Shown here: positions 18,301 to 49,400 of the stretch, piece after piece
How the letters are laid out: the number at the start of each line of letters is the position of its first letter
How positions within the stretch are numbered: position 1 is the first letter of the stretch
Source: Rhododendron vialii
Taxonomy: Eukaryota; Streptophyta; Magnoliopsida; Ericales; Ericaceae
Assembly: GCF_030253575.1 (NCBI RefSeq)
Contig: NC_080561.1
Location: 5,695,001 to 5,759,000, forward strand
Reading direction: 5' to 3'
Length of the DNA stretch: 64,000 nt
Position numbers and translations under genes: made by a program
The notes under the pieces: model-generated
What the model was told of the DNA's origin: nothing
What the model saw: only the letters and a program-made list of their open reading frames with translations
Databases searched by the model: none

Positions 18301-19464
18301 ATGCAAATGTATTTCATGGTTGAACATTATTCTTTCCTTCTACGAAGGTTATGTGAACTTCTGCCAGACTCTCCCTGTGTGGTGGATATGCATCCAAACA
18401 TGTCCTATTACGTTTAACCTATTTTCAGAACGAGAAATGCTTTGAGTAATTGCAAGATGGTGGCCATATTTACAGACACACACACACACACACATGGGGA
18501 AAAAAAGGAAAAAAAAACATGCATGTTTGAAAACAGTAACTATGGAATTATGGAAGCAATTAAAATTGCACCCATCTACCAGGAAAAAAACCCTCTCTTG
18601 CTTGGCTTGTTTTTATCATGTCGATGGAAGAAATAGGGGATGGTAGCAATATGGTTCATGTATATCTGAATATTTTTTAAAAGTGAAGCATGATCTCTAA
18701 TACTTGGTCTGACACAGTGTTTCTTTTGGCAGTGTTACAACGCCAAAATATCGGACTTTGGTTTGGCTAAATTGGGTCCCTCAGCTAGCAAATCACACAT
18801 TACAACACGGGTCATGGGCACATCAGGCTATGCAGCTCCAGAGTATGTTGCCACAGGTAATCCCCTCAACCTTTTCAGATCTTCAATTTCTGAGGCTGAA
18901 CAATCACTGGAGTCAAGCTATTGAAATAATCATGCTTCAGAGCCACTTGAACTATACCCACATAACTTCAGTGTCTCGTACTAATATTACTCGTCTGGTT
19001 AACCAGGGCACTTGTATGTGAAGAGCGACGTGTATGGTTTTGGTGTTGTGTTGATCGAGATGCTAACAGGACTACGAGCAGTTGATCCAACCCGTCCTGG
19101 TGGGAGATTAAATCTTGTTGACTGGATCAAACCACATTTATCGGACAGAAGGAAGTTGAAGCAGGTAATGGACTCCCAGTTGCAAGGAAAATATCCTTCC
19201 AAAGCAGCTCTTCAAATAGCTCAGCTTGCCCTAAAATGTATTGAACCTGAACAAAAGACGAGGCCATCGATGAAAGTAGTAGTGGAGACGCTGCAACATC
19301 TTGTAGAAAACGATGAGAAGCCTAAAGAGCCTAGAGTTCATCCCAGAAATCGTACTAGTTCTCATCACCCTCGCGGTCCACAGCAGCCTTTGCACCATCG
19401 ATCTCCACTTCACCCGAGGCACCACGACCACCAGTCCTATCAACTCCCTCCACCCGCACGGTAG
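15357..19464 (+). CDS. PIX13: Receptor-like cytoplasmic kinase VII, PIX13-like, 6 exons
   Basis: Exons 15357-15426, 16803-17134, 17839-17974, 18112-18254, 18733-18856 and 19007-19464 join in frame with GT-AG junctions to give 420 residues, the usual length for PIX13/PBL kinases. The N-terminus MGLCWGSPS has Gly2 for N-myristoylation and Cys4 for palmitoylation, so it is likely held at the plasma membrane. Kinase features: GEGGFG loop at 91-96, VAVKK with catalytic Lys120, Glu136 in helix C, YRDFKASN with Asp217 (non-RD: Tyr replaces His), DFG 235-237 and APE 262-264. The basic, His/Pro-rich tail ends PPPAR. The protein probably relays signals from receptor kinases. Identification rests on the N-terminus and exon pattern resembling Arabidopsis At2g17220. 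A rearranged second copy lies at 45.1-48.3 kb. Confidence 0.92.
15727..16605. repeat. Duplicated blocks in kinase intron 1
   Basis: CCCATTTGTCTAC and CCCAATTTTGTCTGCACC with following GATCGCGTGAGA-like sequence occur at about 15735 and 16030. A block with GAATCAGCCTCTCCCA, TGTGAGAGGGAGCCTTGCGC and GTATTTGTTTA occurs at about 15970 and 16542. CTCTCCCA and TGTGAGAG form a small hairpin. It looks like overlapping segmental duplications within the intron. Confidence 0.75.
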
Positions 19465-20650
19465 CTTTGGTACACCACTTTCCACGAGGGCTGAGCAGGT
19501 TGTGATGAATCTGCGTACGAAGATACGGAAATTGTAATGAGTTTTGCTGTTCTAGTGGTGCTATGTTATTAGAAGAAAAGAATGTAAGGAATCGAGATGT
19601 AATTATTTTTGTTGGTCTCTTGACTAGTGCTTGATAACATGTCAACACGGCCATTATATGTACACCAGGAAGAAACAATTTCTGTTTTGTTTAGGTGTTC
19701 AACAATCATATGATAACGTGCGTTGTTGCAACGTTATGCATTGAAATTTATTTGAAATGAAGATTGCCATTCAATCTATGAAATGAGGATAATAGTTGTT
19801 AGTGTTTTGTCAATCACTAGAGCAGCTATTTTGTTATTGTAGTTTATGTCTCGAGAGTGAAATTGCTGCGATATTTCAACATTAACGCTAGCAATGCATA
19901 GCTGCGGTGGATTTTCAAAGTAAAGAAGTTCAGTGTTCTTATAATTTGGCAGATCATGCAGTTTATCCTGTGTCAACGATAATAGAATTCGTCTGAGTTC
20001 AAGAAATGTGAAACAAATCTGTTGGCTCGATTGTAAGTTTGACAAATTGTCTCCTCCCATCTTCTTCATCTCTACCAACTCGACCCCACAGCATCGACCG
20101 TCATCCTCCTTTTGGGGTTGATTCCCCGAAATTTTACAACAATAAATCTGTGTATAAGTATCAATATGTACAGGCATGTGCGTTTGGGATTTTGCAGAGA
20201 ACCAAATACAATTTCAGGCTGTGCCCAACTCATACAAATGCGTGAGTGCGAGTGAAAGCGTCCCGGGAGGGTGCGAGCGTGAAATTGCCTTTTGAAGTTA
20301 CTAAAATTCACAAGAAGAAGGATTGAAACCAAAACGTCAAAAGAAGAAAAACATTAACAAGGATGCCTACCCAATTTAATTTGCGCTACTGTGAGACCTA
20401 AATCACACAACAGGCGTAGCATCTGTTTTAGCAAAAGACGGATAAAAACTGGTGAAAATAGAAAAATGTTGATTGGCAGTGGGGTTGATTGGAAACATAA
20501 AGCGCAAGAAACTAAAGAATAATGTACTACTTATTACTGCATAAATTGTCTCCTTTTTTCCCCTGAACACAACCAAGTTTATACTTTCTCATGAAACTGA
20601 TTATCTAAAAACTGAATTTCATACTTATCCTTACTTTTCATTTACTTATT
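16840..20650. repeat. Segmental duplication, copy A (intact kinase gene)
   Basis: Exon 2 to about 1.2 kb past the stop codon, introns included, is closely repeated at 45404-49400. A further block at 21090-21220 (TTCTTATGCTCTGATCAAGG, CCTGCATTTGTAGCTGTTGCC) reappears at 53010-53090. The duplication was therefore longer and copy B has since been split by insertions. Confidence 0.9.
18475..18494. repeat. (CA)n run in kinase intron 4
   Basis: A short CA microsatellite, also present but shorter in the duplicate at about 47349. Confidence 0.85.
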
Positions 20651-21545
20651 CCTTATACAACAATAACAATAGAACTTATGTAGTCACCAATCATTGAAGG
20701 TATGAGTGGGGAAAGATTGGAAACAGACCTAACCTTTTGACAATATGCACAAAATGCTGCTTTCAGGATACTACTGAAACAGTGACCCCCTCCCATACCT
20801 GTTTTGCTACGGAACCATGCCTCAAAATCAAATCCAAATGGCATTGGAGAAGACAGGCCTAGAGACCCAATTCAATTTCTGTGCACATTGCCATGCTCCC
20901 TACTTATTCCTAATAAAGTTCTTGAAGAAAAACTTTTTTATGGCGCTCAATCACGCACGTTCAAATGTGTTTTGGACGGTCCGGATTTTGAAAAAATTAT
21001 TCGCTGGAAGAGTTTAACTCTTCGCGTGAATAGTTTTTTTTTTAAATTATGACCATTGATTGCCAAAACGGACGGCTGAGATTGCAAGGAGCTGTGAACC
21101 AAACTTATAAATACTGTAACAGATTTACCCACAAATTTCTTATGCTCTGATCAAGGACACTCTCTGGGCAAAAATTCTTTACCATTCCTGCATTTGTAGC
21201 TGTTGCCTTGTTCACTTTGGTCTTGATACATGGATGAAAGGTTCTTTTGCAAATCAACGATGATGAGGTTGGAACACGGGTAGTTAAGGCAATCACGACA
21301 AAGTTAATTTGATTGGAATAAGACGGATAAGATGAATCAAGGTGAGCTGTATGGTTACCTCCATCGAGCCCTCGTCTCTTTGCTTTCCGTAGTGCAGAGT
21401 GGTATTTGAATTTTTTAGCATTGGCCATTGAATTTGATGCTATTTTGATTTTTGAGTGCAGGCAGCCGCGCTGCACTAAGCAATGAACATGAATTTGGGC
21501 AGTACCAGTGGCAAAACATGTGAGCGAATTTAGCAACAATGGAGG
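19465..21545. other. 3' flank of the kinase gene up to the retrotransposon
   Basis: No gene recognised. The first 1.2 kb belongs to the segmental duplication. A hairpin (TTCGCTGGAAGAG with CTCTTCGCGTGAA) lies at about 20999-21030. The 180-codon minus-strand frame at 21105-21647 runs across the retrotransposon border and is rejected as coding. Confidence 0.5.
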
Positions 21546-21550
21546 GTAAG

Positions 21551-22257
21551 TGTTTGTACCACAATTAAGATTTCCATTTTCACCCGTCGATCTGGCGACA
21601 CGTGGCAAGGGTAAATATGGGCAAGTAGGAGGATAGAATGGACTCACCTTAATAATTTAAAATCGATGGTGAAACTACAAAAAGTCTTGTCCGTCGATTG
21701 GTCTACACATGGCGTATTCCGAGGGCCCTTTGATCCGTCGATCAGGTGACAGGTGTCAAAAGGAATTAGATCCCATGATCCCACGATTGAAGAAGATGGT
21801 AACCGCAATTAACAAGGCAATTTTCTCAACGTGGGCATGATCGGCAGTTGGAGGAAGTGCTTAATCAGAATTCGAGGAAGTTTTTCAACTGCTACTTTGG
21901 GGGGAAGATTTGAATTCAAATGTAGGAAGGCCTATTTAAGAACAAGTTAGTAGCAGTTTCAGGGACACACAAACAACGCCAATCAGGCCTTTATCTTTTC
22001 TTTTCTAGGAGTAGAATTAACTTGTAATTGTTCACTCAATCATCTCGATTGGTTGTTCTTCTACTTTGAGGGTTAATAAAGTCTATTTTGTTAATCTTCT
22101 TCCATACTTCATTTACTTCATTGTTTGTTTCCAAAGAAGTCCTGAAATACGGCAAGGAACCAAACTCCACTTTTCACATCCACATTCCAGCAAGCTTACG
22201 ATACAATTTCCCGTCGATTCTCCGTCGATTGGAAAGAAAACAAGAATTTTGGTAACA
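21551..22257 (+). repeat. 5' LTR of the Tat element
   Basis: 707 bp, TG...CA. CCTATTTAAGAACAAG at about 21931 is a plausible TATA region, with AATAAA at about 22075. Contains several TCCGTCGAT phrases. Confidence 0.95.
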
Positions 22258-22303
22258 ATTTTGGCGCTGGAAGGAGGGCTCGTTACTAATTTGGAAGTGA
22301 GCA

Positions 22304-25060
22304 GTGGCACCAAAGACTAGGAATCAATTGCCAACAGATGGCAACAATGACAACAATTCTGCTAATATTAATGGTGGAAGTGATGCAAATGGAATCAATG
22401 TTGTGAATCCGGACCAGAGGAGTTCAGAACGGAGCCAACCAAATGGTCCAGAAATCGAATCATGTGACTTGATCCAAAGATTTGCAAGAGTTTTGAATGA
22501 TCCAGAAAGTGAGGTAGCCAAAACTTTGATGGCTATGTTTAAGGCAGCAGTGGCACAAAATCAACCAACGGTGGAAGTCCCGATTAATGTAAACGTTAAC
22601 CCTGGACAGACCAATTGATATACCAACTGTAACAATGAAGTACCTTCTACGCAGGTATTTGATAATCCAACTTTTGAAACTGTTTTTACTGGAATGAATA
22701 GAGTTCCAAATAATATTGGTAACGGTCAAAATCAGAGCTTTTATCAAAGTATACCAACTACTGTCCCTATGGGAACAGAAACTGGAAATATTGGAAATAA
22801 TGCCCATGGAGGGCAAAATGTTTATGCAAATATTTTTAGGAATGATAACAGGAATATCCCAAGTACGGCTAATGGTGATCCAAATCTTTATGGGTATGAT
22901 CCACCAAACATAAGAAGACAAGATTATCCATATGGGCATGATATTAGACCCGAAGCCCTTGTTCCTCCAAATCAGACTGGAAGAATACAGGAGCCTTATT
23001 TAAGGGCTCAACTCACGAATATTATGCAAGATATGTATGGTCCTGGATTACGGAGAATTGAAAAACATATGTTTAGAAAACCGTATCCAAATTGGGTTGA
23101 TAATGTGCCTTTTCCTAGACATTATAGAATTCCAGATTTAGTTCTTTTTAATGGAGAGGAAAATCAGTCGACCATCGAACATGTTGGGAGATTTTGCCTA
23201 CAAATAGGTGAAGCAGATTTGGATGAGGCTTTAAAATTAAAGCTGTTTCCTCATTCTCTTACTAGAACTGTTTTTTCTTGGTTCATTAGTTTGCCTCCAA
23301 ATTCTGTTCATTCTTGGAGAGAAATGGAAGAACAGTTTCATACTCAATTCTTTAGGCATACACCAGAAATTTCAGTAGCAGACTTGGCTAAAATCAAACA
23401 AAAGCCTTCAGAGTCTGTTGAACAATATATGAACAGATTCAAAAAGATCAGGAATCAGTGTCATTTTTATATCCCTGAATCTGAAATAGTGAAGATAGCC
23501 CAGAAAGGGTTAGATTATGACTTTAAGAAACATTTTACTGGGACTGAATTCAGAGATTTATTTAATTTTACTTCCAAAGCCATAGGATATGAGGCTATTC
23601 TTATGGAAGGGGAATACAGGAAAAGTAAATCACTTGGTACATATTACCAAGATATAGAAGGTGATGTAGATATTGATGTTGCCCAAGTGATTAGAAAAGC
23701 ACCAATTGTTTGTGATACTTTAACAAAGGCTGAGAAGCCTGTGAATATGCCTTCATCTCATTCAAACAGGAGAAATCAGGCAAATTTTAGACAATACTCA
23801 TTTGATTTGTCCAAGGCTGATCAACTATTTGATGAACTAATTAATCAAAAGTTCTTAACTTTATCACCAGGGCTTATGATTCCTCCTGAAAAGGATAGAA
23901 AAGGAAAAGAGTACTGTAAGTGGCATAATTCTTTTAGACACAATACTAACAATTGTGTTACATTTCGAAATTGTGTGCAGGACCTAATCCAGAAGGGCCT
24001 GTTCCAGTATGCTAAGGGAAACAAAGAAGTGATGGGTATTGATATTGATCCTTTTCCTTTGGTGGAAGTCAATATGGTGACAGCCAGATTGAAGAAAGGG
24101 AAAATGGCATCTCAAATTGAAAGAAGGATTCAAGAAGAAGAAAAAATTATGGAAGAAGATGAGGAAGTTCAAGTGAGGCAGAAATTTAAGAATTATTTCT
24201 GTTTGAGATGTGTTGAGGAGATCAAGAAAGGGGAAGAGATGATTGCAGAAAAAGAGTACAATGGTACCTATGCTAAAGGTTCCATTAGATTCAATACTAT
24301 GGGAAGTAGTGATTTGCAGATTTATGTAGGACCAAAGTTGATTTTTGAAGGTGAAGACCCTGGAATTTTCATACCTTCTGAATCACTCAAATGGTATGGG
24401 GAAGATGATGGACCATTCCTGTTTAAAAGATATCCTGTGATTCCAGCACTACTTGGAAAGCCAGATGCAAGCCTAATATACCCACCTTCATTTATGAATG
24501 GGAGGGGAAGAGGTTTTTACCCAAGAGGTGTAAGATCAAGGGGAAGAATGCCTTTTGTCAGGGGTGGATATCAAGGAAGGATGGTGATTCCACCAAATAT
24601 CGAACATCATGGGTGGGATACAGTGAGACATCCTAAATTCCCAAGTGTAAGGGAATTTGAGCCCATTACCAACACTCAGAAAAGAAGGTTACAAAGGAAG
24701 ATTTCAGAAAGAGAAAGAAGAGACCAACAGATAATGATGGATTCAACACAATGGCCAGAAATAAAGGCCAGACCAGTTCTAAATCAGGCAGCCCCTATGG
24801 TTTGGACTAGGGAGTCAACTATACCAGTTTCAACAGTGCCTAAACAGAAAGCAAAGGAGGTAGAAAAACTTGTGGGGCAAGCAATCAAACCAGCCATTAC
24901 TCAAAGGCTTGGGGGGCAAAGCTCAAGTTCTTCCCCTACTCTGTCAATTAGGGAGCAAAAGGCAGAATTCAAGAAGAGCTTAAAGAAGAAAATAGAAGAA
25001 TTTCAACAAGTATTGTTAGAAGATGATGATCTTTTTTGTCAGTTAATAGTTCAGATATGA
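22304..25060 (+). pseudogene. gag of the Tat retrotransposon
   Basis: One frame encodes about 918 codons of capsid-type gag with a single TGA at 22616-22618. The expected initiator position (before APKTRNQ) reads GTG, so no ATG is available there. The retrotransposon gag domain lies around 23120-23540 (RIPDLVLFNGEE, FSWFISLPPNSVHSW, EEQFHTQFF, ESVEQYMNRFKKIR). A zinc-knuckle-like C..WH...H.....C motif follows near 23920. The C-terminus is Lys/Glu-rich with a Gly/Arg patch (GRGRGFYPRG, about 24499). In the family, gag forms the virus-like particle and packages element RNA. The frame ends at 25060, where protease coding opens in another frame. Confidence 0.9.
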
Positions 25061-26016
25061 TGAAAGAAGATTTCAAAGATGACAAGAATGAAGTGGACTC
25101 TCAAAAGTCTACCACCTTTGGTCAAGCACTGGATACAATCCAATTCGGGTCAGTTTCCCATACTAGAATTCATTGCAATATGATGTTAGTTTTGCCAAAA
25201 AAATTTCAGGCAAAACCTAATCAGCCCACAAGTTTAGAAGGGGATGTTGAAGACAAAACAGATGCTATAGTGAAGATAAATGAGCAAGAAGAAGATTTAA
25301 AAAAGAAGTCCATTCAAATTGAGAAAGATACAAGAGGAAAAGATGTGGTTGTCTTGAGGGCTCCTGAAAATGCCTTGGTCAGGCATTTAAAGCCATTATA
25401 TATTATGGTTCACATTAATGGGCAGCCTATTAATAAGGTTTTGATTGATAATGGAGCTATAGTAAACATCTTACCTTCGAAAATGATGAAGACTTTGAAC
25501 AAAAATGAGTCAGATCTGATCCCAACAGAAGTGACAGTTGGAAATTTTGCAGGAGGATGTTCACCTGCTAAAGGTGTGATTTCTTTGCAATTACAAATTG
25601 GAAACAGAAAGATGAACACTACTTTCTTTGTTATTGATTCTTCATCCAATTATAATGCCTTGTTAGGCAGAGATTGGATTCATATAAACGGGTGTGTTCC
25701 CTCTTCTTTACATCAGGCATTAATATTTCTGAAACAAGGAGAGGATAAAGATATCGACGGAATGGAAATTTTCTGGGCAGACAAACATCCATTTAAAGCA
25801 GATACCAACAACGTGGAAGCAGGTCTATATGATGAAGACTTATGGCCAGTCAAGGTTGAGGGTTCAGAAGTGAAATCGATAGGGATAAGCATTACTGAAA
25901 GCCAATTCTCTAAATACATTACAGATGGTTTTAAGGAAATAAGTGGAGATTTTGTTAGACCTAACATAATACTAAGGTCTAGTGGTTCTAAATCAAAAGT
26001 TTCCCATGATCAGTGA
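25036..26016 (+). pseudogene. Protease region of the Tat retrotransposon
   Basis: This frame overlaps the end of gag by 25 bp. It contains a retropepsin-like domain: PLYIMVHINGQPI, active-site LIDNGAIVNILP (Asn in place of the usual Ser/Thr after Asp) and ALLGRDWIH near its end. The frame then closes at 26016, and the RT-bearing frame opens at about 25982, so an additional shift separates protease from RT. Whether the gag-protease overlap is a programmed frameshift or a mutation cannot be told from one copy. Confidence 0.85.
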
Positions 26017-29000
26017 CTATCTGAGCCATGTGAATGAAGAGTTAGCTACTTTAAAAGCTACTTTTAAGAGATTATTTTCTTTCATTGTATCTAGGAAATT
26101 AGAGGCTGATGAGCCTATTTCTTGTAATTGGGCAGACTGTGTAGTTGATGATAGTCCTTTGACTGTTAAGGAATTGACTATGGAAGATCTTAAGGCTGCT
26201 CCTGCTAAACTTGATGATTATAAAGCAGAAGTAAAAGATCCATTAGAGGATTTTAATGTAGGAACAGAGGAAGATCCTAAAATTCTTCATGTATGTGCTG
26301 CTTTACCTGATGAAATGAAGGATCGTTTGAAGTACTTATTGTCTGAATTCAAAGATTGTTTTGCTTGGGATTATCCTGATATGCCTGGTTTGAATAGATC
26401 ACTAGTTGAACACAAAATTTCTATTAAAGAGGACTTTGTTCCATATCAATAAATTCCAAGACAGATGACACCTGAAGTTCAAAAAGAAGGAAAGAAAGAA
26501 ATGGAACGATTGTTTAAGGCCAAATTTATTAGGCCTGTTAAATATGTTGAATGGATTTCAAATATTGTTCTTGTAATTAAGAAAAATGGTAAGGTGAGAA
26601 TATGCATTGATTTTAGAAATTTAAACACAGCATCACCAAAAAATGAGTATCACATGCCTATTGTAGACCATTTAGTGGATGCAACCGCAGGCCATCAATT
26701 TCTTTCTTTTATGGCTGGTTATTCTGGGTATAACCAGATATTTATTGCAGAAGAAGATACACACAAAACTGCATTTAGATGTCCAGGATAGATTGGATTG
26801 TTTGAATGGATTGTTATGACATTTGGATTAAAAAATGCAGGGGCGACTTATCAGAGAACAATGAATGTGATTTTTCATGACCTAATTGGAAGGTTTATGG
26901 AAGTTTACATTGATGACATAGTAGTAAAGTCACACACATTTGATGAGCATATAGACTATTTAAGGCAAGTCTTGATGAGGATGAGACAGTACAAGTTGAA
27001 AATGAATGCAATGAAATGCGCTTTTGGAGTTACTGCTGAAAACTTTTTGGGATTTCTGGTTCATAAGAAAGGAATTGAGATTGATAAAGATAAGGCCAAA
27101 GCTATAATAGAAGCACAGCCTCCCACAAATAAACAAGAACTCCAACAGTTTTTGGGACAGGTAAACTTTCTCAGGAGATTTATCTCCAATTTATCTGGAA
27201 AAACTCTTGCTTTTTCCCCACTTTTAAAGTTAAAATCTCAAAAAGATTTCAAATGGGAAAAAGAACATCAGAAGGCTTTTGAATTTTTAAAGCAATCATT
27301 GGTAAGGCCTCCTGTTATGATGCCACCAATAACTGGAAAACCTTTGAAATTGTATATCTTAGCAGGACACCAGTCGATTGGTTGTCTTTTGGCTCAAGAT
27401 AATGAAAATGGTCATGAACAAGCCATGTATTATCTTAGTAGGAGATTAAATGAATGTGAGATAAAATATAAGCCTATTGAGAAGCTATGCTTAACATTAT
27501 ACTTTTCTGCCATCAAGCTAAGATGTTACATGTTACCATCGACGGTACATGTAATTGCACAAACGGATGTCATTAAATATATGTTAACAAGGCCCATATT
27601 AAGAGGCAAACAAGGAAAATGGTTGTTATCTCTAATAGAGTATGATTTACAGTACGTGCCTCAAAAGGCAGTAAAAGGGCAAGCTTTAGCTGACTTCGTA
27701 GCTAATCATCCTAACATATTAATGGAAAAGGATGAATTTGAGATACATATGATTGAAATAAAACCATGGAAATTGTCATTTGATGGTTCTAAAACTGACA
27801 GAGGAGTTGGAGCAGGTGTAGTTTTTACATCTCCAAAAGGGGAATTCTTACAGTTTTCTCTTCAGTTAGATGAAAACAGAATTTTGACCAACAATCAAGC
27901 TGAGTATGAAGCTTTAATTATTGGTTTAGAGATTGCAAAAGAATTGAATATTAGGTATTTAAATGTTGCGGGGGATTCACAGTTGGTGATTCGACAGATA
28001 ACAGGGGAATATAAGTGTAATCATCCCTTATTAGAATTACAACTGCAGAAAGTTAAAATTCTTGTAGAATATTTTGATGAAGTGCATTTGCAACATGTCT
28101 ATAGATTGGAGAATAGTGATGCCAATCAGATGGCACAAATTGCTTCTGGAATTAGGATCCCAGAAGGACAGAATGAAAAATTAATAAAAGTCCAGAAGAG
28201 ATTCTTGCCTTTCTCTATTGAAAGAGATAGCAAAGATTTTGATGTTATGGAAATAAGCTTGGTTGATGATTGGAGAGTTCCAATAAGGAGATTCTTAGAA
28301 AATCCAAAGGAAAAGACAGACAGAAATATAAAGCAAATGGCCATCAACTATGTTTTAATGGGCAATGATTTGTTTAGAAAATCTTCAGATGAAGTATTAT
28401 TGTTGTGTATTGCAAAATTCCAAACAATGACAGTTATGGGAGAAGTTCATGAGGGGACTTGTGGTTCCCATCAATCTAGAGAGAAAATGAAATGGTTGCT
28501 TAAAAGATATGGCTATTATTGGCCAACAATAAGGAAAGATTGTATCTCTTATGCTAAGGGATGTCAAAAATGTCAACAATATGGTCCCATTCAAAGGGTT
28601 CCAGCTTTTCCTTTACAATCGATTGTTAAACCATGGCCTTTCAGGGGGTGGGCAATTGATATGATTGGAGAGATAATTCCTCACTCTTCTCAACAACACG
28701 AATATGTAATGGTAGCTACGGATTATTTTACGAAATGGACAGAAGCCATCCCATTAAAGAGTGCGGCACAGAATGATTTCATTGAAGAGTATATTTTCTG
28801 TCGATTTGGTATTCCTGAAACAATTACGGTTGACCAAGCATCTGTGTTTAACGGTCACGAAGTAATGACTTATGTTAATTCATATGGAGTAAAAATCTTG
28901 AATTCTTCTCCTTATTATGCCCAAGCAAATGGGCAAGTGGAATCTACTAATAAAATTATCAAGAATACTCTATCTAAAATGATAACTGACAATCCAAGAG

Positions 29001-29527
29001 AATGGCATAACCTACTGCCAAGAGTGTTATGAGCTTATAGGACTTCAAAAAGGGAAAGCACAAGAGCTACACCATATGAGTTGGTATATGGCCAAGCTGC
29101 AGTATTACCCGTTGAGGTTAATATTACATCTCACAGGGTTGCTAGGCATTATGGCTCAAATAATGTGGATTTCGAGGAAGTAATGTATCAAGAGTTAGAT
29201 GGACTAGAAGAATCTAGAATAGATGCTTTGAATAATATACAAGCACAAAAGAAAAATCTAGAGAGAGTTTATAATAAAAGAGTTCATGAAAAATCATTTG
29301 CAGAAGGTGATTTGGTTTGGAAGGCAATTTTGCCCTTAGATAAGAAAAAGAAAAGATATTTCGGTAAATGGTCTCCAAATTGGGAGGGACCATTTCGTGT
29401 ATTAAAAGTACTAAGAGGTGGTGCTTATCAGTTAGAATCTGTTCTTGGAAATGTTCATGAAAGAACAATCAATGGGAAGTATTTAAAGGCATATTTTCCA
29501 TCTCCTTGGGAGTTAATCGACGGATAA
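25982..29527 (+). pseudogene. RT - RNase H - archaeal-type RNase H - integrase of the Tat retrotransposon
   Basis: A single frame is broken by stops at 26450-26452 (TAA), 26789-26791 (TAG) and 29030-29032 (TGA). RT covers about 26460-27160 with RICIDFRNLN and YIDDIVVKS. The motif that normally carries the first catalytic Asp reads FMAGYSGYNQ, so that Asp is replaced by Ala. RNase H follows to about 27720. A second RNase H is at 27760-28150 (LSFDGS, NNQAEYEAL, VAGDSQLV, DANQMA). Integrase at 28430-29100 has HEGTCGSHQ...CQKCQQYG zinc-binding residues and intact DDE-type residues (WAIDMIGE, TVDQASVFNG, NGQVESTNK). A GPY-like tail (NWEGPFRVLKVL) closes it. The stops and the RT change leave this copy unable to move itself. 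Confidence 0.93.
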
Positions 29528-29717
29528 AAGCATTAATCGACGGACAGGTAATTCACATCTAAAAAGATCATCATTAAAAGCCTATAAACTTAGGCTTACT
29601 GTTCATTCAACATAAAGCAAGAGACATTTCCTGCTTACAAAAAGAGGAAAAAACATGATATTTCCTATTTTAGAAAGGAAACAGAACGTAGATAAAATTT
29701 GACTAATGCCTATTAAT
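29528..29717. other. Spacer between pol and the antisense frames
   Basis: Short non-coding junction with TTAATCGACGGA repeated; contains the convergent ends of the sense pol frame and the antisense frame. Confidence 0.5.
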
Positions 29718-30863
29718 TTAGGCATTGACAGGCACAACAGGGTTACCATCAGCATCAATTCGGATGATTTCAAAATAGTGTGGGAAACTCCAAGTAACAA
29801 AAACATGAAATTTTTCCCAAGCATAGGTCAGGAATGCATGCTCTTTGTCCCTAGCCATTGCCTTTGCATCCATCTTTATCTTCTTATCTACTAATGGCCT
29901 CATGGCCATTACACTCTTTTCAGCTTGAGCCAAGAGATGAGCTCTCTTGTGGTTTTTCTTTTGAAGCCAGTTCCGATGTTTCTTGAACAGAGTTTTTGAG
30001 GAATTCGGTGGTAGCTCCCAATTGGAGTGGTTTAGGTCTAACACTTTGCTATGAAGTTTAACTACTTTTTCATGTTGAACTTCATAATCAACCCAAAAGG
30101 GATCATAGTAAGCAGCAATGCTGGTCTTCATCCAAAGCCTTATAAGAGGCAGTGCAGATTTAAACCCATGAAGGTGGGTAGTAATGAGGCTGCTCTCGTA
30201 AAATTGGAGGGTTTCACATGCCCACAAGAAGTTCAGATATGGGACATGTTCTTCCAGAATGTGAATATTTAGAAAGGCAAAAGCAGCCAGGAGTTCTTTG
30301 GCTGTATTTTCATCAGAATCCCTGTAAATTGAATACCCTACATGGGCTTGAGATAGTGGGGGGTTGTACCTCAAATTCTCCAATTCTTGAAACCAATCAG
30401 GGTTTTCAGGTAGGGGAGAGATGTCAGGTTGATCATCAGAAAAGCCATCAGGAAAACATGGATTTCTCACCATTTCTTTCCAATAAGCTTGTTGATTTTT
30501 TGCCCTCTAGAAAAGGGATTCGTGATTCTCCAAGCTTGGCTTGCCGCCTGCCTCTGCCAGTTGAAATGGCATTGGCCTATATGGCATGGAAAGTAGTGAA
30601 TCCAGTAACATTGCCAGTGGTTCTTCTCTGACCCAGGGAAATTGATAGCTGACTTTGACGTGCGAGCGTCGAATACTTGAATTGGGATACAGAGGAGGAT
30701 TCTCCATTCTGACGATTACCCTTTCATTGGGTGGCTTAATACTCCAACTGGATGGAGGGTTAGAAGGCAAAGGATCATCCCAGCCAGAAATGGCTGCAAT
30801 AGGAGAAAATGGCCGATCGACAGAATCAAAAGAAGGCGAGGGGGTGTTTAGATCGATGTCCAT
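29718..30863 (-). pseudogene. Antisense ORF 2 of the Tat element, function unknown
   Basis: Starts at an ATG (30863-30861, MDIDLNTPSPSF) and runs 382 codons to 29718 with one in-frame stop at 30507-30509. I do not recognise a family. The first 120 residues are proline/serine-rich and probably disordered. The rest is helical with aromatic residues (SIYRDSDENTAKELLAAFAF, WACETLQFYESSL) followed by a Lys/His-rich stretch (KKHRNWLQKKNHKRAHLLAQ). It lies downstream of the plant-mobile-domain frame on the same strand and could be a second protein of one antisense transcript. It is conserved enough as an ORF to look like former coding rather than chance. Confidence 0.6.
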
Positions 30864-30896
30864 GGTGCCAATTTGACTATGAGCAGAACAAATCAC

Positions 30897-31460
30897 GAAA
30901 AAGATGAGAAGTCAATTGAGAATACAAGGATCGATATGCAACCATCCCATAAAAGTCCAATTTATAAAGAAAAAATTAGCAACGGTTCAGTTTCTGAGCA
31001 GTTAATCAAAGCAGTTATTATGCATGATTATCTCCACTAACAGGAAGTGGAGGAGAAGACGGTTGGTGTCTCCCATGGGATGCCATTGGTTTATCCCATC
31101 GGTAAAGAAGGAAATAATTAGCCACGATTTATATCCATTACCAAGGAACGGAATAATTGGTTAATGGTTTCGTGATTTCCTATGAATTGACCTTATCAGT
31201 GGGTTTGTTTCAAATACAAAAGAAGTAAGCAAGCAGGGGTTGATTTGCCCTATCGATTCTGGATAAGAGCCGTTTAGAGGTGCGTGTAATTTTGAGAAAT
31301 GCAAGAATAGGATAAGCATACTCAGAATTAGTACAAGTGTTTTAAGACCAAAAACCATAAAAGCCTGAAAGGAAGGCTAAACAATGCAAAAAGTAAAGAA
31401 TACAACAAATAGATGCCTGGAATACATAGGCCAAAGTTATAGTTGTAGTATACAGACTAA
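30897..31460. other. Spacer between the two antisense ORFs
   Basis: AT-rich, no coding seen on either strand; would hold the 3' end of antisense ORF 1 and the promoter or leader of ORF 2. Confidence 0.4.
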
Positions 31461-34400
31461 TTATTGGTTCTTGAGCTTAACCTCCAAGAACAACCTGGAA
31501 AAATAACTCCACTTGCTGTTTGTAGCATTGTACTTTTCCTGATATTTCAAAAAGTCGGTGTTGGCCATTGTGATAATAGCCTTAGTTCCTTGCTCATCAC
31601 AGGATAGCTTGGATAATTTTTGACTGATCAACTCTTTTCGTGCTAATAAAATTCTTTGTTGGTCATCAAGTTGACTCAAACGGGCAAGAAGGGCAGCCTT
31701 CTCATTTTCAATTTGCTGCAATTCATCCTTCAGTTGATATATATTGTTCCCCATTGTATCCAAACTGTTTGAAATGGCTGCAAATTGATTGAGAGTATCC
31801 TGTTTGCTCTTCATCTCTTTCTGACAGTAGGCTGCTACTGTCAAACTCTCATTTACAATTGAGCCAAATTCTTCAAGCTTGATTTGCTCAGACAGTGGGA
31901 AAACTTTCTTGGATATCAGACGGTTCATACAGCTAGAAAAAGCTGCAGAATGATCAATGGCAATTTCCAATAATGGAAGTTCAAGCAGCTCAAAAAAGGT
32001 TTTCATTTCATCTTTTGTCTCCTCACTAAGCTCAGAGGATGGTGGAGAAGTCAGAGATTCAGAAAACTCGGAAATGGACTTTGAATAGAATTCAAAATAT
32101 TTCTTAGTCCTAGTCAGCATAAGGTCCAAGTCAGAATTTGGTGAATTGGTTGGCAATTCAGTATCAGCCCCATCGGCAGATGAAGGAGAAACCATTGGAG
32201 TAGTGGGGTTGATGATCAAATCTAGGGTATGGATTTCCCCTTCAGTCTACTGTTGCTCTGAGAATTCAGTAGCCTCAATCAATGGTTCCACAGGCTCCGA
32301 CATCAATTCTCCTTGAATAGGAGAATGAATTCCTGATTGTTCAACAAGAGGTTCCAACACTCTTTTTCCTTGGGCAGGAGAATGGATCTCTGGTTGCTCG
32401 TTATTAAAAGTCCTTTGTTCTACGAGGGGATCAACTTCCAGAGTCATAGGAGAGTTAGGTACTGAACTCAAAATGAGCTCAGTAATTGGATCAAATGGTA
32501 AAACCTCTGGAAAAGCTGATTTGTTGCCCATGTCAGAAATTTTGACCCCATCGTCCGAAATTGGTGCTGGACATTTTAAAGGTGAAGGGCATTAAATAGA
32601 AGGTCAAGTTGATTGACAGAAGAGGAATTGACAGGGGTTAATAGGTTTATAATCAAACCTTCATCTTTATCACCTTCGTCGTCTGATTGAGGTGCCAGCT
32701 GTAGTCTCCTCCTTGTTTTCTAGAGGTGAAAGGAAAAGAAATGAATCAATAAAGGATTGATACATGATATCTAAAGTCCAAAATTAGCAAAAATATGAGA
32801 TTCTTACCCTTTTAAATGTCACCAGTGTCTCTGAGTCTTCAGCTATTTCTGGCAGACTCGTCCGTCGATCAGGTAAGTTGAGACCTTTCATGGCATCCGC
32901 CATAAGTGGGAGATCTCGCAATGTACTCTGGACTTGTGAAGTCCTGTTTCTTTTCTTGGAGGGAAGTGAAATCTCGGGTTGCTTCCCCTTATCTTGACTT
33001 TTTGGACCTCTTGGTTTTGAGACAGGGGCCTTTTTAGGAACTGAAATCATGAGAAATAGTTAATAAGGATGAAACCTCATGACTATAAAATAAAGGAAGA
33101 GGATTTCATAAAGGATACCTGACGAGGAATCTTCAGGATCAAGTCTCAAAAGACAGTTGCTCAATTCTTTGTTGAAAATAGTGGGCTTGATGCAATCCCA
33201 AAACAGTTTGAATTCTGAGGTGAGAGAAGGTTCGGCCACAAAACTCGCAAGTTGGAAACTGGCCTTGATACCTTGAAATTGACCAATCAGCTCTGTAATC
33301 AGGGAAGTTTGGGTCACAATTGGCCTTGTTTTGGCGAAATCCTTGATCCTTGGATGAGTGTGAGGGACAGGGATCCCTTGTGACAAACCAAACTGTCTAG
33401 CACACTGATTTGGCATGTAGACTTCGAAACTGCAGTTGGAAAAACGTGTAGTTGATGGGGAGAATCCTATCGACAGGAACCTTGATATCAAGATACTAGC
33501 CCAAAATTCATTGACCACTTGAGCTGGAACTAAAAATTTGAGGATAGGTTCTATCCTTCGCGATGCCGAGTAACGGCAGTCCTTAAAAGGGAGCCAATTA
33601 GGGAACTCTTCAAGAACAGGGCTATAAAAAGCTTTGAAATACCTTTTAAAGGATGAGTCCTCATGTTTGGGTTCATGGGCTAAAAAGTATTCTGCATAGC
33701 TCAAGCATTCACCCCCATCTTTCCTCTTCGGAAAATAACTTGTGGGTTTAAGAAATGGAAAATAGGCATACAGCCATGCTTGGAGAATCCAATAAGGACC
33801 ACCACAATTACTGGTGATTTTATTTTGTGTGAATGTCCACAATCCTTTATACAATGTCCCTAATACAAAGGGAGATAATGCAAGCTTTGCATCTTGAGCT
33901 AAGCAAATGGCCAAGCGAATATATTCCTTGGTAATCTTCAAACCGGACACACATAGCACATATTTGCTGAGCCAATACAAGTAAAATGCTACTTTTTCAG
34001 TAAATGATGGCTCTCTGAGATCAGAAGTGCAAAAAAAGGGATATAAAATGTGCATAACTCCAATAGTTATCAGCAAAGGCCTCAAACGGTGGATCACAAG
34101 GGCGATGATCCAAGGCAGCATTAACTTCTGCACCTATACTCGATAGGCCAGTCAGATGAGCGATGTCCAAAACGGTGAGACTCATGGGGCCATGTGGAAA
34201 AACAAAGGTGTTGGATGAAACAGACCAAAAACAAGCAGCAGCAGCAATCAAATTAGGGTTAAATTCAAAGGCCTGTGTAGATAGGTCTATGGTTTCATAA
34301 ATTCCCATAGCATGCCACGAGAGATGTAGGTATCCCTTCATACGATTAACCCACTTTATCCAAGATGGAAATACAGAGGGCCATGATCGGATTGTTCCTC

Positions 34401-34734
34401 TGGTATTCCAACCAGTACGATGGAGACCTGGGAGCGAGAGGAGTAAGGGCTCGTCGAAATTTACCAGATAATATGTCGGTAGTGAATCAGGGGAGTTTGG
34501 AGAATAAATTGGACCCAATATAAATTTAGAGGGACAACAGACTACATGAATAAAATAAAGAGATAACTGAGGTGCCTCCCTTAGGCATTGAGGGTACCTT
34601 GGGAGATAGGTCTCTGTTGGGGTTTCAGTTTCCCAAGAGCTCGATTCTTTCTTCTGGGTTGACCGAGGAGTCAACGACTTGGAAGAAGCTTTAGAGACCA
34701 TTGCTTTGCTCTGAGGAGCTTTCTTGGGCGCCAT
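31461..34734 (-). pseudogene. Antisense plant mobile domain (PMD) gene inside the Tat element, spliced, decayed
   Basis: Starts at ATG 34734 (MAPKKAPQSKAMVS, basic, possible nuclear signal). The PMD (PF10536-type, as in MAIN/MAIL proteins) covers about 34630-33120, with MSLTVLDIAHLTGLSS and GGPYWILQAWLYAYF typical of the family. Two introns have canonical GT-AG ends and keep the frame: 33041-33118 and 32720-32807. After them come a Lys/Arg-rich and acidic linker, then Glu/Pro repeats (EPLVEQ), then a coiled coil of about 100 residues (32030-31560, QLKDELQQIENEKAALLARL) to the stop at 31461. Breaks: a one-base shift in a run of seven A near 34030, a shift near 32580, and a TAG at 32247-32249. 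The element function of PMD is unknown; nuclear or silencing-related roles are known for the cellular relatives. Confidence 0.8.
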
Positions 34735-34897
34735 CGATTCTGAGGTTGATGGTTTGTAATGGTGCCCTAATTTTTATAAACGAAAAGATATATATACGTT
34801 GGAAGAGCCCCATGTGGTAATCACGCCTTTTGGAAAAGGCAAAGGAATTATTTGTTCGAGTTAAATGATTTTTAACTTAAACAAATAAGGGGGGCAT

Positions 34898-35604
34898 TGT
34901 TTGTACCACAATTAAGATTTCCATTTTCACCCATCGATCTGGCGACACGTGGCAAGGGTAAATATGGGCAAGTAGGAGGATAGAATGGACTCACCTTAAT
35001 AATTTAGAATCGATGGTGAAACTACAAAAAGTCTTGTCCGTCGATTGGCCTACACATGGCGTATTCCGAGGGCCCTTTGATCCGTCGATCAGGTGACAGG
35101 TGTCAAAAGGAATTAGATCCCATGATCCCACGATTGAAGAAGATGGTAACCGCAATTAACAAGGCAATTTTCTCAACGTGGGCATGATCAACAGTTGGAG
35201 GAAGTGCTTAATCAGAATTCGAGGAAGTTTTTCAACTGCTACTTTGGGGGGAAGATTTGAATTCAAATGTAGGAAGGCCTATTTAAGAACAAGTTAGTAG
35301 CAGTTTCAGGGACATACAAACAACGCCAATCAGGCCTTTATCTTTTCTTTTCTAGGAGTAGAATTAACTTGTAATTGTTCACTCAATCATCTCGATTGGT
35401 TGTTCTTCTACTTTGAGGGTTAATAAAGTCCATTTTGTTAATCTTCTTCCATACTTCATCCACTTCATTGTTTGTTTGCAAAGAAGTCCTGAAATACGGC
35501 AAGGAACCAAACTCCACTTTTCACATCCACATTCCAGCAAGCTTACGATACAATTTCCCGTCGATTCTCCGTCGATTGGAAAGAAAACAAGAATTTTGGT
35601 AACA
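34898..35604 (+). repeat. 3' LTR of the Tat element
   Basis: 707 bp, same ends as the 5' LTR, followed by the GTAAG duplication. Confidence 0.95.
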
Positions 35605-37899: not shown

Positions 37900-40800
37900 T
37901 GTCACGCCCTCGATTTTCAACTAAAATAATAATACATTTTCTACAAATAAAAGTCTCTCTCTCAACTATATATACCCTTAAATGTCATGCCAACCAAAGC
38001 AAGGAACCAAAGCTATTCTCTCTAATTTTTTTTTTTACATAAAGTCTCCCAAACGTTTACAATTAAATGGGTTTCATAATAGTCAAGGAGAAGAGTTTAT
38101 ACATGGCTTTACAAATATTCTAATCAAAAGGGCACAACCTTCAATTGGGAGCAAAGTACACAACATGAATTGGACTAGCTGATGAACACTTCCTTAATGA
38201 TACCAATGAAGCTCTCACGAGACATCTCAATGTGCACTCCATGCAATCCAAGCTAAGTGTCATGACGAGTACCTGAAAGGATAGGGTGAGCTACACTAGC
38301 TCGTAGAGATATCCATACCTAAATTACATGCAGAAGTGAAGACAGATCACAAGGGAAAACATTTTCCAAAAGCATACTTGTTTTGTCAAAAGTGAAGCTC
38401 AAAATGTCATACTCACGCTGGAAAATATTTAACTCCATTTCTCAAACACCAACACTCTCACCCACTCACACCAATACTCTTAAAAATCTCAGCTTACCGT
38501 TACAACGTTATCCAAATCAATCCTTGCTTTTTCATTTCCATTTCAATGACCTAAAGATTAATCTTAGCTCTTTAACGAAGTGTTTTCACTTTCTTTTCTC
38601 ATACAACTAGCCAACCTCACCCCAAAATATACATGCTAGGCATGTGGAGTTAGAACATAAGGTAAGCAATAACAAGTCAAACAATATCGCACCTCAACAA
38701 CAACGAAACTCAACCGTCAACCTCAAATCAATCTTCAAATCTCAAGTTTAACATCTAGTAAAAATCTCTTCACAATAAGATGTCTTTTATGAAACTCTCG
38801 CAATGCATAGCACCACAAGGTACCAAATATGCATTCACACATAACAAGTTGACCACCACATATCAGGAAAACAAGCCACAATGATTTGGAGGTCTAAAAG
38901 AAGGAATGTAAAACATGTATTGACATACTAGACAATCCAAGTTACCAACTCAAACTGACATTTCAATCTTAGTATGATGCTAAATACTATGAAGATTCTC
39001 CGTTTTCACTGTCACATGTTTCGATTTCATTTCCGGGCATTAAGGACCCCGTGCGTCCTATGTCCATTCCGGCATCACACCTTTCGGTGGATCCATGCCT
39101 TTCTTGTGCACTTCCGGGCATTAGGGACCCCGTGCGTCTACTAAAATCCTTTCATTCAGTTCCGGGCTTTTAGGACCCCCGTGCGTCCACAAAAATCCTT
39201 TCATTCAATTCCGGGCTTTAAGGACCCCCGTACGTCCACTAAAATCCTTTTGATTCAATTCCGGGCTTTTAGGACCCCCGTGCGTCCACTAAAATCCTTT
39301 CATTCAATTCCGGGCTTCAAGGACCCCCGTGCGTCCACTAAAATCCTTTTGATTCAATTCCGGGCTTTTAGGACCCCCGTGCGTCCACTAAAATCCTTTC
39401 ATTCAATTCCGGGCTTTAAGGACCCCCGTGCGTCCACTAAAATCCTTTTGATTCAGTTCCGGGCCCGTGCGTCCACTAAAATCCTTTCGATTCAGTTCCG
39501 GGCTTTAAGGACCCCCGTGCGTCCACTAAAATCCTTTCGATTCAATTCCGGGCTTTTAGGACCCCCGTGCGTCCACTAAAATCCTTTCATTCAATTCCGG
39601 GCTTTAAGGACCCCCGTGCGTCCACTAAAATCCTTTCGATTCAATTCCGGGCTTTAAGGACCCCCGTGCGTCCACTAAAATCCTTTTGATTCAGTTCCGG
39701 GCTTTTAGGACCCCCGTGCGTCCACTAAAATCCTTTCGATTCAATTCCGGGCTTTAAGGACCCCCGTGCGTCCACTAAAATCCTTTTGATTCAGTTCCGG
39801 GCTTTTAGGACCCCCGTGCGTCCACTAAAATCCTTTTGATTCACATCTCATATTACCACCTAATGGACCCCCTTTGTGACATCTCCATTAAGAGTCTAAT
39901 TTGCAAATACTTATAAAGATCCTCATCTTTGTAGTACCCATCAGTGCTTAACAACCATGCACTCATGCCAAGTGATTCACCAAATCCTGTTTAACTCACT
40001 GCAAGTATCCCGCTAGCCCAAAGACTCAATCTCATGGAAAGACATCGAATAATTTACACATCGCGTCAAACATTCTACAACTTAATTTATCATCGATCGT
40101 ATCATCCATCTAATCCATTTTCTATTCCAATCGTTTACAAGTATTTTAACCCTTATGCTCACTAATTCTCATATCCCAATAATTAATCATCTAGATCGAC
40201 TCATCATATCCCCCACATATCCAATAGGTGAAATTAATCATTCACACTTGAAGTTCTGACTATATCCGATCAAATAACATAAATTTAAGAACGACATTTA
40301 AACCATTGAAAAGTAGGCTTCTCCTTTGAATCCATAGATCATACATCAAAAACGGAGTTCGGGTAACTTAACTACGGCCTTTCAATTATAGCTCCAACAT
40401 AACAGTAAAAACTGGTACAAAGGCAGAATTTAGGTCAACTTTGGATGCAAATCTGTTATCGCTCGGACATACCCATGATGCATGGGATGTATCGTTGGAA
40501 AGCTCTATGTGTCTAGTTTCTACCAAAACAAACGGTGTGTCGTTTCGGGTCCCGAGCTAGGAGTTATGGCCATTTTACCTAAGTCCGCCGGTGCTGTCAG
40601 ATTCTACGCGGGAATAAGTAAAATTGATTGAAAAATCATAACTCTTTCATCTTAAACCCAAAAATAGTGAAACCAAAGCCAAAAGTTGCACCACGACAAG
40701 CCCTACACTCAGTAAAAATCCCAGGTTCAGAAACGAGAGGAGATTAACCCAACAATCAAAAGAAAAACAGTTTCGCAACCATTTTCGCACCTATCAACCA

Positions 40801-48100: not shown

Positions 48101-48332
48101 AAAATGTATTGAACGTGAAAAAAAGACGAGGTCATCGATGAAAGTAGTAGTGGAGACGCTGCAACATCTTGTAGAAAACGATGAGAAGCCTAAAGAGCCT
48201 AGAGTTCATCCCAGAAATCGTACTAGTTCTCATCACCCTTGCTGTCCACAGCAGCCTTTGCACCATCGATCTCCACTTCACCCAAGGCACCACGACCACC
48301 AGTCCTATCAATTCCCTCCACCCGCACGGTAG
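45106..48332 (+). CDS. Chimeric PIX13-like kinase copy lacking the DFG aspartate, 5 exons
   Basis: Exons 45106-45744, 46709-46844, 46983-47125, 47604-47724 and 47875-48332 join in frame for 498 residues. From about residue 100 on this is a copy of the PIX13-like gene, with glycine loop GEGGFG, VAIKK (Lys199), YRDFKAAN (Asp296) and the same tail. Two things differ. Exon 1 with the myristoylation site is gone, replaced by a new 5' ORF with repeated [11 protein letters not shown] and a 42-bp duplication (GGAAGCAAAATCCCTAGGAA-like). The Mg-binding DFG reads GFG at 314-316. All splice sites are intact and there is no stop, so a pseudokinase is possible. It may equally be a young pseudogene; expression cannot be judged. 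The ATG at 45106 is the first in frame. Confidence 0.7.
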
Positions 48333-49400
48333 CTTTGGTACACCACTTCCCACGAGGGCTGAGCAGGTTGTGATGAATCTGCGTACGAAGATTCTATCGA
48401 TATCAAACTGCCCCTCTCTCTTCTGCTACGGAAATTGTAATGATTTTTGCTGTTCTAGTGGTGCTATGTTCTTAGAAGAAAAGAATGTAAGGAATTGAGA
48501 TGTAATTATTTTTGTTGGTCTCTTGACTAGTGCTTGATAACATGTCAACACGGCAATTATATGTACACCAGGAAGAAACAATTTCTGTTTTGTTTAGGTG
48601 TTCAACAATCATATGATAACGTGCGTTGTTGCAACGTTATGCATTGAAATTTATTTGAAATGAAGATTGCCATTCAATCTGTGAAATTGGGATAATACTT
48701 GTTAGTGTTCTGTATTGTAGTCGAGAAATGTGAAACAAATCTGTTGGCTCGATTGTAAGTTTGACAAATTGTCTCCTCCCATCTTCTTCATCTCTACCAA
48801 TTCGACCTCACAGCATCGACTGTCATCCTCCTTCTGGGGTTGATTCCACGAAATTTTATGACGATTAATGTGTATAAGTATCGGTATGTACAGGAGTGTG
48901 CGTTTGGGATTTTGGTTCCCAAATACAATTTCAGGCTGTGCCCAATTCATATAAATGCGCGAGTGCGAGTGAAAGCATTTCGGGAGGGTATGAGCGTGAA
49001 ATTGCCTTCCAAAGTCACTAAAATTCACGAGAAGAAGGATTGAGACCAAAAACGTCAAAAAAAGGAAAAACATTAACAAGAATGCCTACCCAATTTGTGC
49101 TACTGTGAGACCTAAATCACATAACAGGCGTAGCATAAGTTTTAGCAAAAGATTGATAAAAAATGGTGAAAAGAGAAAAAATGTTGATTGGTAGTGCCGA
49201 CTGTGCCGTAGTAGGGTTGATTGTAAACATAAAGCGCAATAAACTGCAGAATAATGTACAACTCATTACTGCATAAATTTTGTCTCCTTTTTTCCTTGGA
49301 ACACAACGAAGTTTAGACTTTCTCATGAAACTGATTATCTGAAAACTGAAATTCAGACTTATCCTTACTTTTCATTTACTTATTCCGAATAAAGTTGTTA
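45404..49400. repeat. Segmental duplication, copy B
   Basis: Matches 16840-20650 through exons, introns and 3' flank. Copy B has about 240 bp more in intron 2 (46133-46372). It also has about 30 bp near 48391-48425 absent from copy A, and lacks part of the 3' flank (after 48718). The duplication resumes beyond the insertions at about 52855-53090. Confidence 0.9.

Follow-up and report, generated by a model that had tools for sequence, protein, structure and literature searches.

Two putative antisense genes under purifying selection, one with three predicted introns, in a Tat-lineage retrotransposon family of Rhododendron vialii

Reverse transcription of an RNA copy normally removes introns, and this locus raises the question of whether a retrotransposon can own a gene that keeps them. 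The window, a stretch of 64,000 nucleotides of Rhododendron vialii contig NC_080561.1, contains a 14-kb Tat-type Ty3/gypsy element, within which a preliminary description had proposed a spliced antisense gene for a plant mobile domain (PMD) and a second antisense ORF. Comparison of genomic copies points to a likely answer: a Tat-lineage family with antisense genes, three introns in gene 1 and purifying selection on the encoded proteins. The frame of the element is as follows.

21551-22257, plus strand: 5′ LTR, 707 bp (self-BLAST against 34898-35604; TSD)
22301-29527, plus strand: gag-pol (gag, protease, RT, RNase H, second RNase H, integrase), in seven sense ORF pieces
34898-35604, plus strand: 3′ LTR, 707 bp (self-BLAST; TSD)

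The two LTRs differ at 10 of 707 positions (98.586% identity in self-BLAST), the TSD GTAAG lies on either flank, and gag-pol is interrupted by stops in frame and, at two points, by overlapping frames; the window copy is one recent insertion, now broken. The Pfam scan covered three of the seven sense gag-pol pieces and placed RT_RNaseH at 183-284, RVT_3 at 330-449 and Integrase_H2C2 at 547-598 of one ORF. The second RNase H thus follows the first and precedes integrase, the arrangement (aRH) by which PMC6317226 defines the Tat clade. Downstream of integrase, as far as the 3′ LTR, it is the minus strand that holds the long frames, as had been described, the longest having 357 codons versus 147 on the plus strand, and none of 500 dinucleotide shuffles of this region reached 262. 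Under codon usage trained on gag-pol, the antisense frames scored above other minus-strand frames, but not above all plus-strand frames, and this test was given no weight.

Gene 1 (34734-31461, minus strand) is predicted to encode, in four exons separated by three introns, a PMD followed by a basic region and then by a coiled coil.

33119-34734, minus strand: exon 1, ATG 34734 and PMD (PF10536; ATG in 24 of 26 copies reaching it)
33041-33118, minus strand: intron 1, 78 bp, GT..AG (canonical in 24 of 27 copies)
32808-33040, minus strand: exon 2, lysine/arginine-rich region (gene model, copy alignment)
32720-32807, minus strand: intron 2, 88 bp, GT..AG (canonical in 28 of 28 copies)
32659-32719, minus strand: exon 3, 61 bp (length constant across all 28 aligned copies)
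32567-32658, minus strand: intron 3, 92 bp, GT..AG (canonical in 25 of 28 copies)
31461-32566, minus strand: exon 4, coding for a fast-evolving linker and then for a coiled coil (gene model, heptad score)

The PMD assignment made in the preliminary description was borne out: in frame from ATG 34734, a 5′ piece (E 1.5e-12, 47.8 bits) and a 3′ piece (E 1.2e-25, 90.9 bits) both exceeded the PF10536 gathering score of 34.9 bits. The coiled-coil-like stretch described behind it was likewise recovered, with a heptad score, a home-made measure, above all 300 shuffles. The two introns originally claimed have GT..AG ends and preserve the reading frame; their number was wrong, since reaching the coiled-coil exon requires intron 3, failing which a stop follows 29 codons past exon 3. 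Scans of viral contigs with pieces of the PMD, ORF2 and pol gave no matches, nor did PDB sequence searches with pieces of the PMD and ORF2, and AlphaFold2 run without an alignment returned useless models (mean pLDDT 39.0 and 35.3).

Within gene 1, 123 frame-bridging GT-AG pairs were candidates, and introns 1-3 had the top three scores under the splice weights used. Their raw scores were 7.6, 3.8 and 3.8; control strands scored equally or higher, the maximum being 8.7 on the strand opposite gag-pol, and the splice score was therefore rejected as stand-alone proof of introns. Each intron contains stops in all three frames. The T fraction of intron 1 (0.474) was equalled by 4 of 3793 exon windows and that of intron 2 (0.477) by 0 of 3753; that of intron 3 was unremarkable, being equalled by 304 of 3737.

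The copy alignment comprised 28 of the 36 eORF matches in the host genome, eight being left out. The intron interval was retained in 27/27, 28/28 and 28/28 copies covering introns 1, 2 and 3, respectively, which fits the argument for intron persistence made in the preliminary description. Intron lengths ranged over 74-92, 77-90 and 83-137 bp, and the splice dinucleotides were broken in three copies at intron 1 and in three at intron 3. Genome probes found no intronless copies at junctions 1 and 3, but their mismatch limit took in only 3 of 27 and 6 of 28, respectively, of the copies known. The window copy is not intact, contrary to what had been implied, and carries a frame change within 34021-34133, where two overlapping frames of exon 1 meet, an in-frame TAG at 32247-32249 in exon 4 and another TAG in ORF2. 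These lesions are not a family property, because under the three-intron model gene 1 is unbroken in 4 of the 26 copies reaching its start codon (1002-1003 aa) and ORF2 stays open as far as the alignment extends in 11 of the 22 reaching its own.

ORF2 and the candidate promoter motifs of both genes lie at these positions.

29718-30863, minus strand: ORF2 (gene 2), 382 codons including one in-frame TAG at 30507-30509 (frame translation)
30959-30967, minus strand: TATA-like TTATAAATT, 96 bp ahead of the ATG of ORF2 (weakly suggestive of a promoter of its own)
34788-34797, minus strand: TATA-like run, 54-63 bp ahead of the ATG of gene 1 (weakly suggestive of a promoter)

The length of 382 codons given earlier for ORF2 holds only if the TAG is ignored; the absence of a recognised family stands, the best Pfam match to the read-through being at E 0.073. 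The ORF2 ATG is kept in 22 of 22 copies. In a count drawing on 43 of 92 ORF2 rows, a convergent ORF2 lay at most 2.5 kb downstream of pol in 35 of 40 pol copies; among the other five are three incomplete pol matches, and C9:27630690, which has the eORF region further off. Neither the ORF-less copies nor the neutral decay named in advance as contrary evidence were thus seen. Two distant ORF2 homologues (45% and 37% identical) had no PMD gene within about 5 kb, so gene 1 and ORF2 need not travel together. At the ORF2 TATA-like site, TTATA[AC]AT is present in every one of the 24 aligned copies that span the site, and the 9-mer itself occurs in the window at chance frequency (3 occurrences versus 3.05 expected). 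The core TATATAT upstream of the gene 1 ATG was present in all eight copies examined.

For the analysis of selection, variants found in at least three copies were counted as shared, and those in exactly two copies as neither shared nor singleton. The N/S counts omit codons within positions 34020-34133, codons split by introns, codons at which a stop is the commonest form, codons represented in fewer than 15 copies (fewer than 10 in the 21-copy analysis) and variants with more than one change. On shared variants in 21 copies, two of which cover integrase only partly, omega-like values were 0.09 for the integrase benchmark, 0.10 for the PMD, 0.14 for ORF2, 0.20 for the coiled coil, 0.29 for exon 2 and 0.61 for the linker. 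Across the analyses the values for ORF2 were 0.14-0.15 and those for the coiled coil 0.20-0.23, whereas the linker was weakly constrained (0.46-0.85, with 0.70 in the 28-copy alignment); those for the PMD, coil and ORF2 stayed at or below 0.31 throughout kappa 2-8 and cut-offs of 2, 3 and 5. By these substitution patterns the PMD is selected about as strongly as integrase, and the coiled coil and ORF2 somewhat more weakly. Singletons gave 0.45-1.07, which is nearer neutral without being fully neutral and makes them an imperfect control. Gene 1 showed shared N:S of 255:470 with 0 stops versus 354:171 with 27 stops among singletons, and ORF2 53:130 with 0 stops versus 105:60 with 4 stops (Fisher, p 7e-29 and 8e-11; the gene 1 test used 248:458 and 342:166, exon 3 excluded). 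Values were 1.8-3.1 in the two other minus-strand frames and 1.0-1.2 in the spacer; the plus-strand frame whose third codon positions coincide was also low (0.31 and 0.25), with 14 and 9 stops among its shared variants. In the 3′ part of the PMD, shared variants occupied 58% of third, 11% of first and 7% of second positions, and introns and spacer were variable at 36-52% of sites. Shared gaps of a length not divisible by three numbered two in ORF2 and one in the exons of gene 1. The gene structure is conserved over the copies, and purifying selection was strong in their ancestral lineage; the start codons, introns, two ORFs and selection that the preliminary description had proposed to check in other copies all held up.

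These data are best explained by a Tat-lineage Ty3/gypsy family that would carry a pair of antisense accessory genes in the stretch from pol to the 3′ LTR, both of them probably needed by the element rather than junk. The unbroken gene 1 product would have about 1000 aa, its PMD being followed by a basic stretch, then a fast-evolving linker and finally a coiled coil, and gene 2 would be a single-exon protein of about 380 aa. Minus-strand transcription would start from promoters just upstream of each ATG and be followed by splicing, and the proteins may be nuclear regulators of transcription or chromatin of the element itself. The introns would outlast replication because the genomic RNA would be the sense strand, in which the introns of gene 1 are not splice substrates. 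A regulatory role of the antisense proteins is suggested by analogy and held tentatively; rather more doubtful is the fuller proposal that a multi-intron antisense PMD-coiled-coil protein and its partner form an anti-silencing or chromatin-control module whose antisense orientation lets introns persist.

HBZ of HTLV-1 is likewise an antisense accessory gene within an LTR element and likewise spliced, with introns that outlast the sense RNA cycle, but it is retroviral, encodes a bZIP protein unrelated to the PMD and has its promoter inside the 3′ LTR. Closer in position are the aORF-3R of Retand, Grande and RIRE2 (PMC11963269, PMC7264820), antisense ORFs between pol and the 3′ LTR, of which there can be more than one; Smc-type matches are reported for some of their proteins, and an own promoter and a nuclear protein for Grande gene23. 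Those carry Transposase_28 (97% of Retand clusters), whereas a PMD is found here, and neither "intron" nor "mobile domain" turned up in a word search of the two texts. The antisense pieces scanned gave no match at E ≤10 to PF04195, the Retand criterion, in a search in which HMMER filters drop most weak matches. Ogre, also of the Tat clade, encodes a PMD in an extra ORF, as here, in 57% of elements according to PMC6317226; its GAG-PROT and RT ORFs are separated by a region averaging 274 bp, unlike those of the window copy, whose frames overlap at 25976-26016. Ikeda et al. (PMC5418596) describe Gypsy-only PMD clades as PMD-A; MAIN/MAIL proteins (PMD-C) have the domain in common but are host genes, and Arabidopsis MAIN, MAIL1 and PP7L act in transposon silencing and gene regulation (PMC5418596, PMC7156037). 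Both features, antisense ORFs of Tat elements and PMDs borne by gypsy elements, are therefore already published, which narrows the unfamiliarity claimed for the arrangement; what is new is the predicted intron-bearing antisense PMD gene under selection. A 2020 review calls for antisense and spliced transcripts to be examined (PMC7264820).

Among rival accounts, a single capture of a host PMD gene, carried as passive cargo with frames open merely because insertions are young, has a source at hand in the at least 136 PF10536 matches of the host genome, some of which are two exons of one gene. It is nonetheless very improbable: passive cargo should show shared N/S near 1, and 0.10-0.23 was observed for the PMD, coil and ORF2. 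The tree within the genome comprised 28 loci (30 taken of the 136 matches, two pieces below 150 aa dropped); the element PMD is at most 27% identical to these and forms a long separate branch with support 1.0, which argues against recent capture from any of them. There is even less to be said for selection on an antisense RNA or cis-acting element rather than on proteins, since constraint tracks codon positions and no stop is shared by three or more copies, although retrotransposon antisense transcripts can work via dsRNA (Vicient and Casacuberta, PMC7264820).

The chance is equally slight that the three gaps are decayed or frameshifted stretches between separate ORFs. Frame-bridging GT-AG pairs are indeed common in the window, with controls outscoring all three introns, yet both splice dinucleotides are kept in most copies, the sequence between them is as variable as third positions, and gap lengths shift out of frame in a family in which four of 26 copies are fully open under the three-intron model. 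A special form of the preferred explanation, argued by analogy, has the element PMD protein interfere with MAIN/MAIL1-type PMD complexes and thereby counter host silencing. The silencing function of the Arabidopsis proteins would suit this, as would the PMD being, together with ORF2, the most constrained antisense part; it is unlikely all the same, the element PMD being far removed from the PMD loci it was compared with, and identical facts suiting a self-activator or self-repressor.

Each of the 28 aligned copies retains the introns it covers while the exons stay selected. If the preferred explanation of antisense accessory genes is true, antisense orientation would let a retroelement own spliceosomal introns and maintain them through many retrotransposition cycles, and intron retention in retroelements becomes testable. 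Extra ORFs of uncertain relevance would become accessory genes needed by the element, which would possess its own selected form of a domain that hosts use, in MAIN/MAIL, for transposon silencing.

The two antisense genes of this retrotransposon family have a structure that is conserved across genomic copies, and both are under purifying selection. Their arrangement in the window is as follows.

21551-35604, the element, bounded by 707-bp LTRs and by a 5-bp duplication (GTAAG) on both sides
34734-31461, minus strand, gene 1, four exons, encoding a plant mobile domain (PMD)
30863-29718, minus strand, ORF2, a single frame with one in-frame TAG

The LTRs differ at 10 positions over 707 bp (98.6% identity), which at plant substitution rates of 0.7-1.3e-8 per site per year dates the insertion to about 0.5-1 million years ago. 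The sense strand, three of whose seven pieces were scanned, codes for gag, protease, RT, two RNase H domains and integrase, and is interrupted by several in-frame stops in the window copy. The second RNase H sits between the first and integrase, an order that PMC6317226 assigns to the Tat clade of angiosperms (Ogre or Retand), and we therefore place the element there. The PMD points to Ogre and the antisense position to Retand; the antisense pieces gave no match to Transposase_28. The element lies between directly duplicated stretches (16842-20652 and 45452-49386, 84-97% identical), whose ORFs resemble a receptor-like kinase. The window also contains a tandem array with a unit of ~50 bp (39092-39935) and a pair of 590-bp direct repeats (57090-57679 and 62208-62797, 99.66% identity) that may be the LTRs of a younger element; a plus-strand ORF of 270 codons (56302-57114) terminates at the upstream repeat.

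The frame starting at ATG 34734 encodes, within one exon, the PMD that the preliminary description had recognized, with PF10536 scores of 47.8 bits for the 5′ part and 90.9 bits for the 3′ part. A search of the gene region, using splice-site weights, returned 123 frame-bridging GT-AG pairs, and the three best-scoring, 33118-33041 (intron 1), 32658-32567 (intron 3) and 32807-32720 (intron 2), join the exons into a single frame. Introns 1 and 2 had been proposed previously, whereas intron 3 had been missed. All three contain stops in every frame; T content exceeds that of 3789/3793 exon windows for intron 1 and 3753/3753 for intron 2, but only 3433/3737 for intron 3. Splicing is unproven by the window alone, because control strands reach raw splice scores equal to or above these. 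The PMD is followed by a basic stretch, a linker and the coiled coil expected from the preliminary description, whose heptad score was matched by 0 of 300 shuffles. In the window copy, the PMD frame shifts within 34021-34133 and exon 4 is interrupted by an in-frame stop.

The antisense region has at least 36 matches in the host genome, counting the window copy, of which 28 were aligned. The features singled out earlier for comparison proved to be conserved, as did intron 3: both splice dinucleotides are canonical in 24/27 (intron 1), 28/28 (intron 2) and 25/28 (intron 3) copies, and the start codons are kept in 24/26 (gene 1) and 22/22 (ORF2). The three introns measure 74-92, 77-90 and 83-137 bp, respectively, and every aligned copy covering the introns retains them, though identity to the window drops to 83.8%. 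The three-intron model is open to a single terminal stop (1002-1003 aa) in 4 of the 26 copies reaching the start, and ORF2 is open to the limit of the aligned stretch in 11/22. Genome probes at junctions 1 and 3 found no intronless copies, which is weak evidence on intron persistence, because only 3/27 and 6/28 known copies fall within the probe mismatch limit.

Selection was assessed from codon variants that differ by a single change from the most frequent codon; those shared by at least three copies should mirror the lineage as it was before insertion, and singletons mostly the decay that followed. Shared variants gave N:S of 255:470 with 0 stops in gene 1 and 53:130 with 0 stops in ORF2, singletons 354:171 with 27 stops and 105:60 with 4 stops. 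Shared omega-like values were 0.18 and 0.08 for the 5′ and 3′ parts of the PMD, 0.32 for exon 2, 0.24 for exon 3, 0.70 for the linker, 0.23 for the coil, and 0.22 and 0.12 for ORF2, against 0.56-1.03 on singletons. Variable sites make up 36-52% of introns and intergenic spacer, similar to third positions (35-60%). Values were 1.8-3.1 in the other two minus frames and 1.0-1.2 in the spacer; the plus frame whose third positions coincide gave 0.31 and 0.25, yet carries 14 and 9 stops in shared variants. In a benchmark of 21 copies, two of which span integrase only partly, the PMD (0.10) and ORF2 (0.14) compare with integrase at 0.09, indicating the purifying selection for which a test had been suggested earlier; exon 2 gave 0.29, the linker 0.61, the coil 0.20 and singletons 0.45-1.07. 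PMD, coil and ORF2 stayed at or below 0.31 at kappa 2, 4 and 8 and minor counts of 2, 3 and 5; the loosest cut-off let in a single stop in each.

ORF2 had been described as a 382-codon frame of no recognized family; it indeed matches no Pfam family (best E 0.073), but in the window copy the frame is broken by its TAG. A PDB sequence search with a 262-aa piece found no relative, and the same piece has 92 host-genome matches, from 100% down to ~31% identity. A convergent ORF2 lies within 2.5 kb of pol in 35/40 pol copies. Two distant homologue loci, L072 and L073 (45% and 37% identical), have no detectable PMD gene in ~5 kb upstream, so ORF2 may be a family of its own.

PF10536 has at least 136 matches in the host genome. 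PMD loci cluster at C6:40.93-41.15 Mb and at C9:3.83-3.91 Mb; in most of them the open frame is complete or nearly so, and they are perhaps host genes. None of the 28 other PMD loci in the comparison exceeds 27% identity to the family PMD, which stands on a long branch of its own; this remoteness would fit the Gypsy-only PMD-A clades described in PMC5418596. PMDs in gypsy elements have been on record since 2011 (as cited in PMC5418596 and PMC9289625), and PMC11963269 and PMC7264820 already report antisense ORFs of Retand-type elements and call for a search for spliced antisense transcripts. Among the records listed from the open-access literature, which excludes the key 2011 paper, none describes an intron-bearing antisense PMD gene or selection on one; this is not proof of absence.

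TATA-like motifs are conserved in 24/24 copies for ORF2 and 8/8 for gene 1, the ORF2 motif occurring at chance frequency in the window. Gene 1 and ORF2 would be transcribed from the minus strand and the gene 1 transcript spliced; the introns would survive retrotransposition because reverse transcription uses sense RNA as template. The presence of introns suggests that gene 1 entered as DNA or gained them later, rather than through mRNA capture. The antisense products may be nuclear proteins with a regulatory role.
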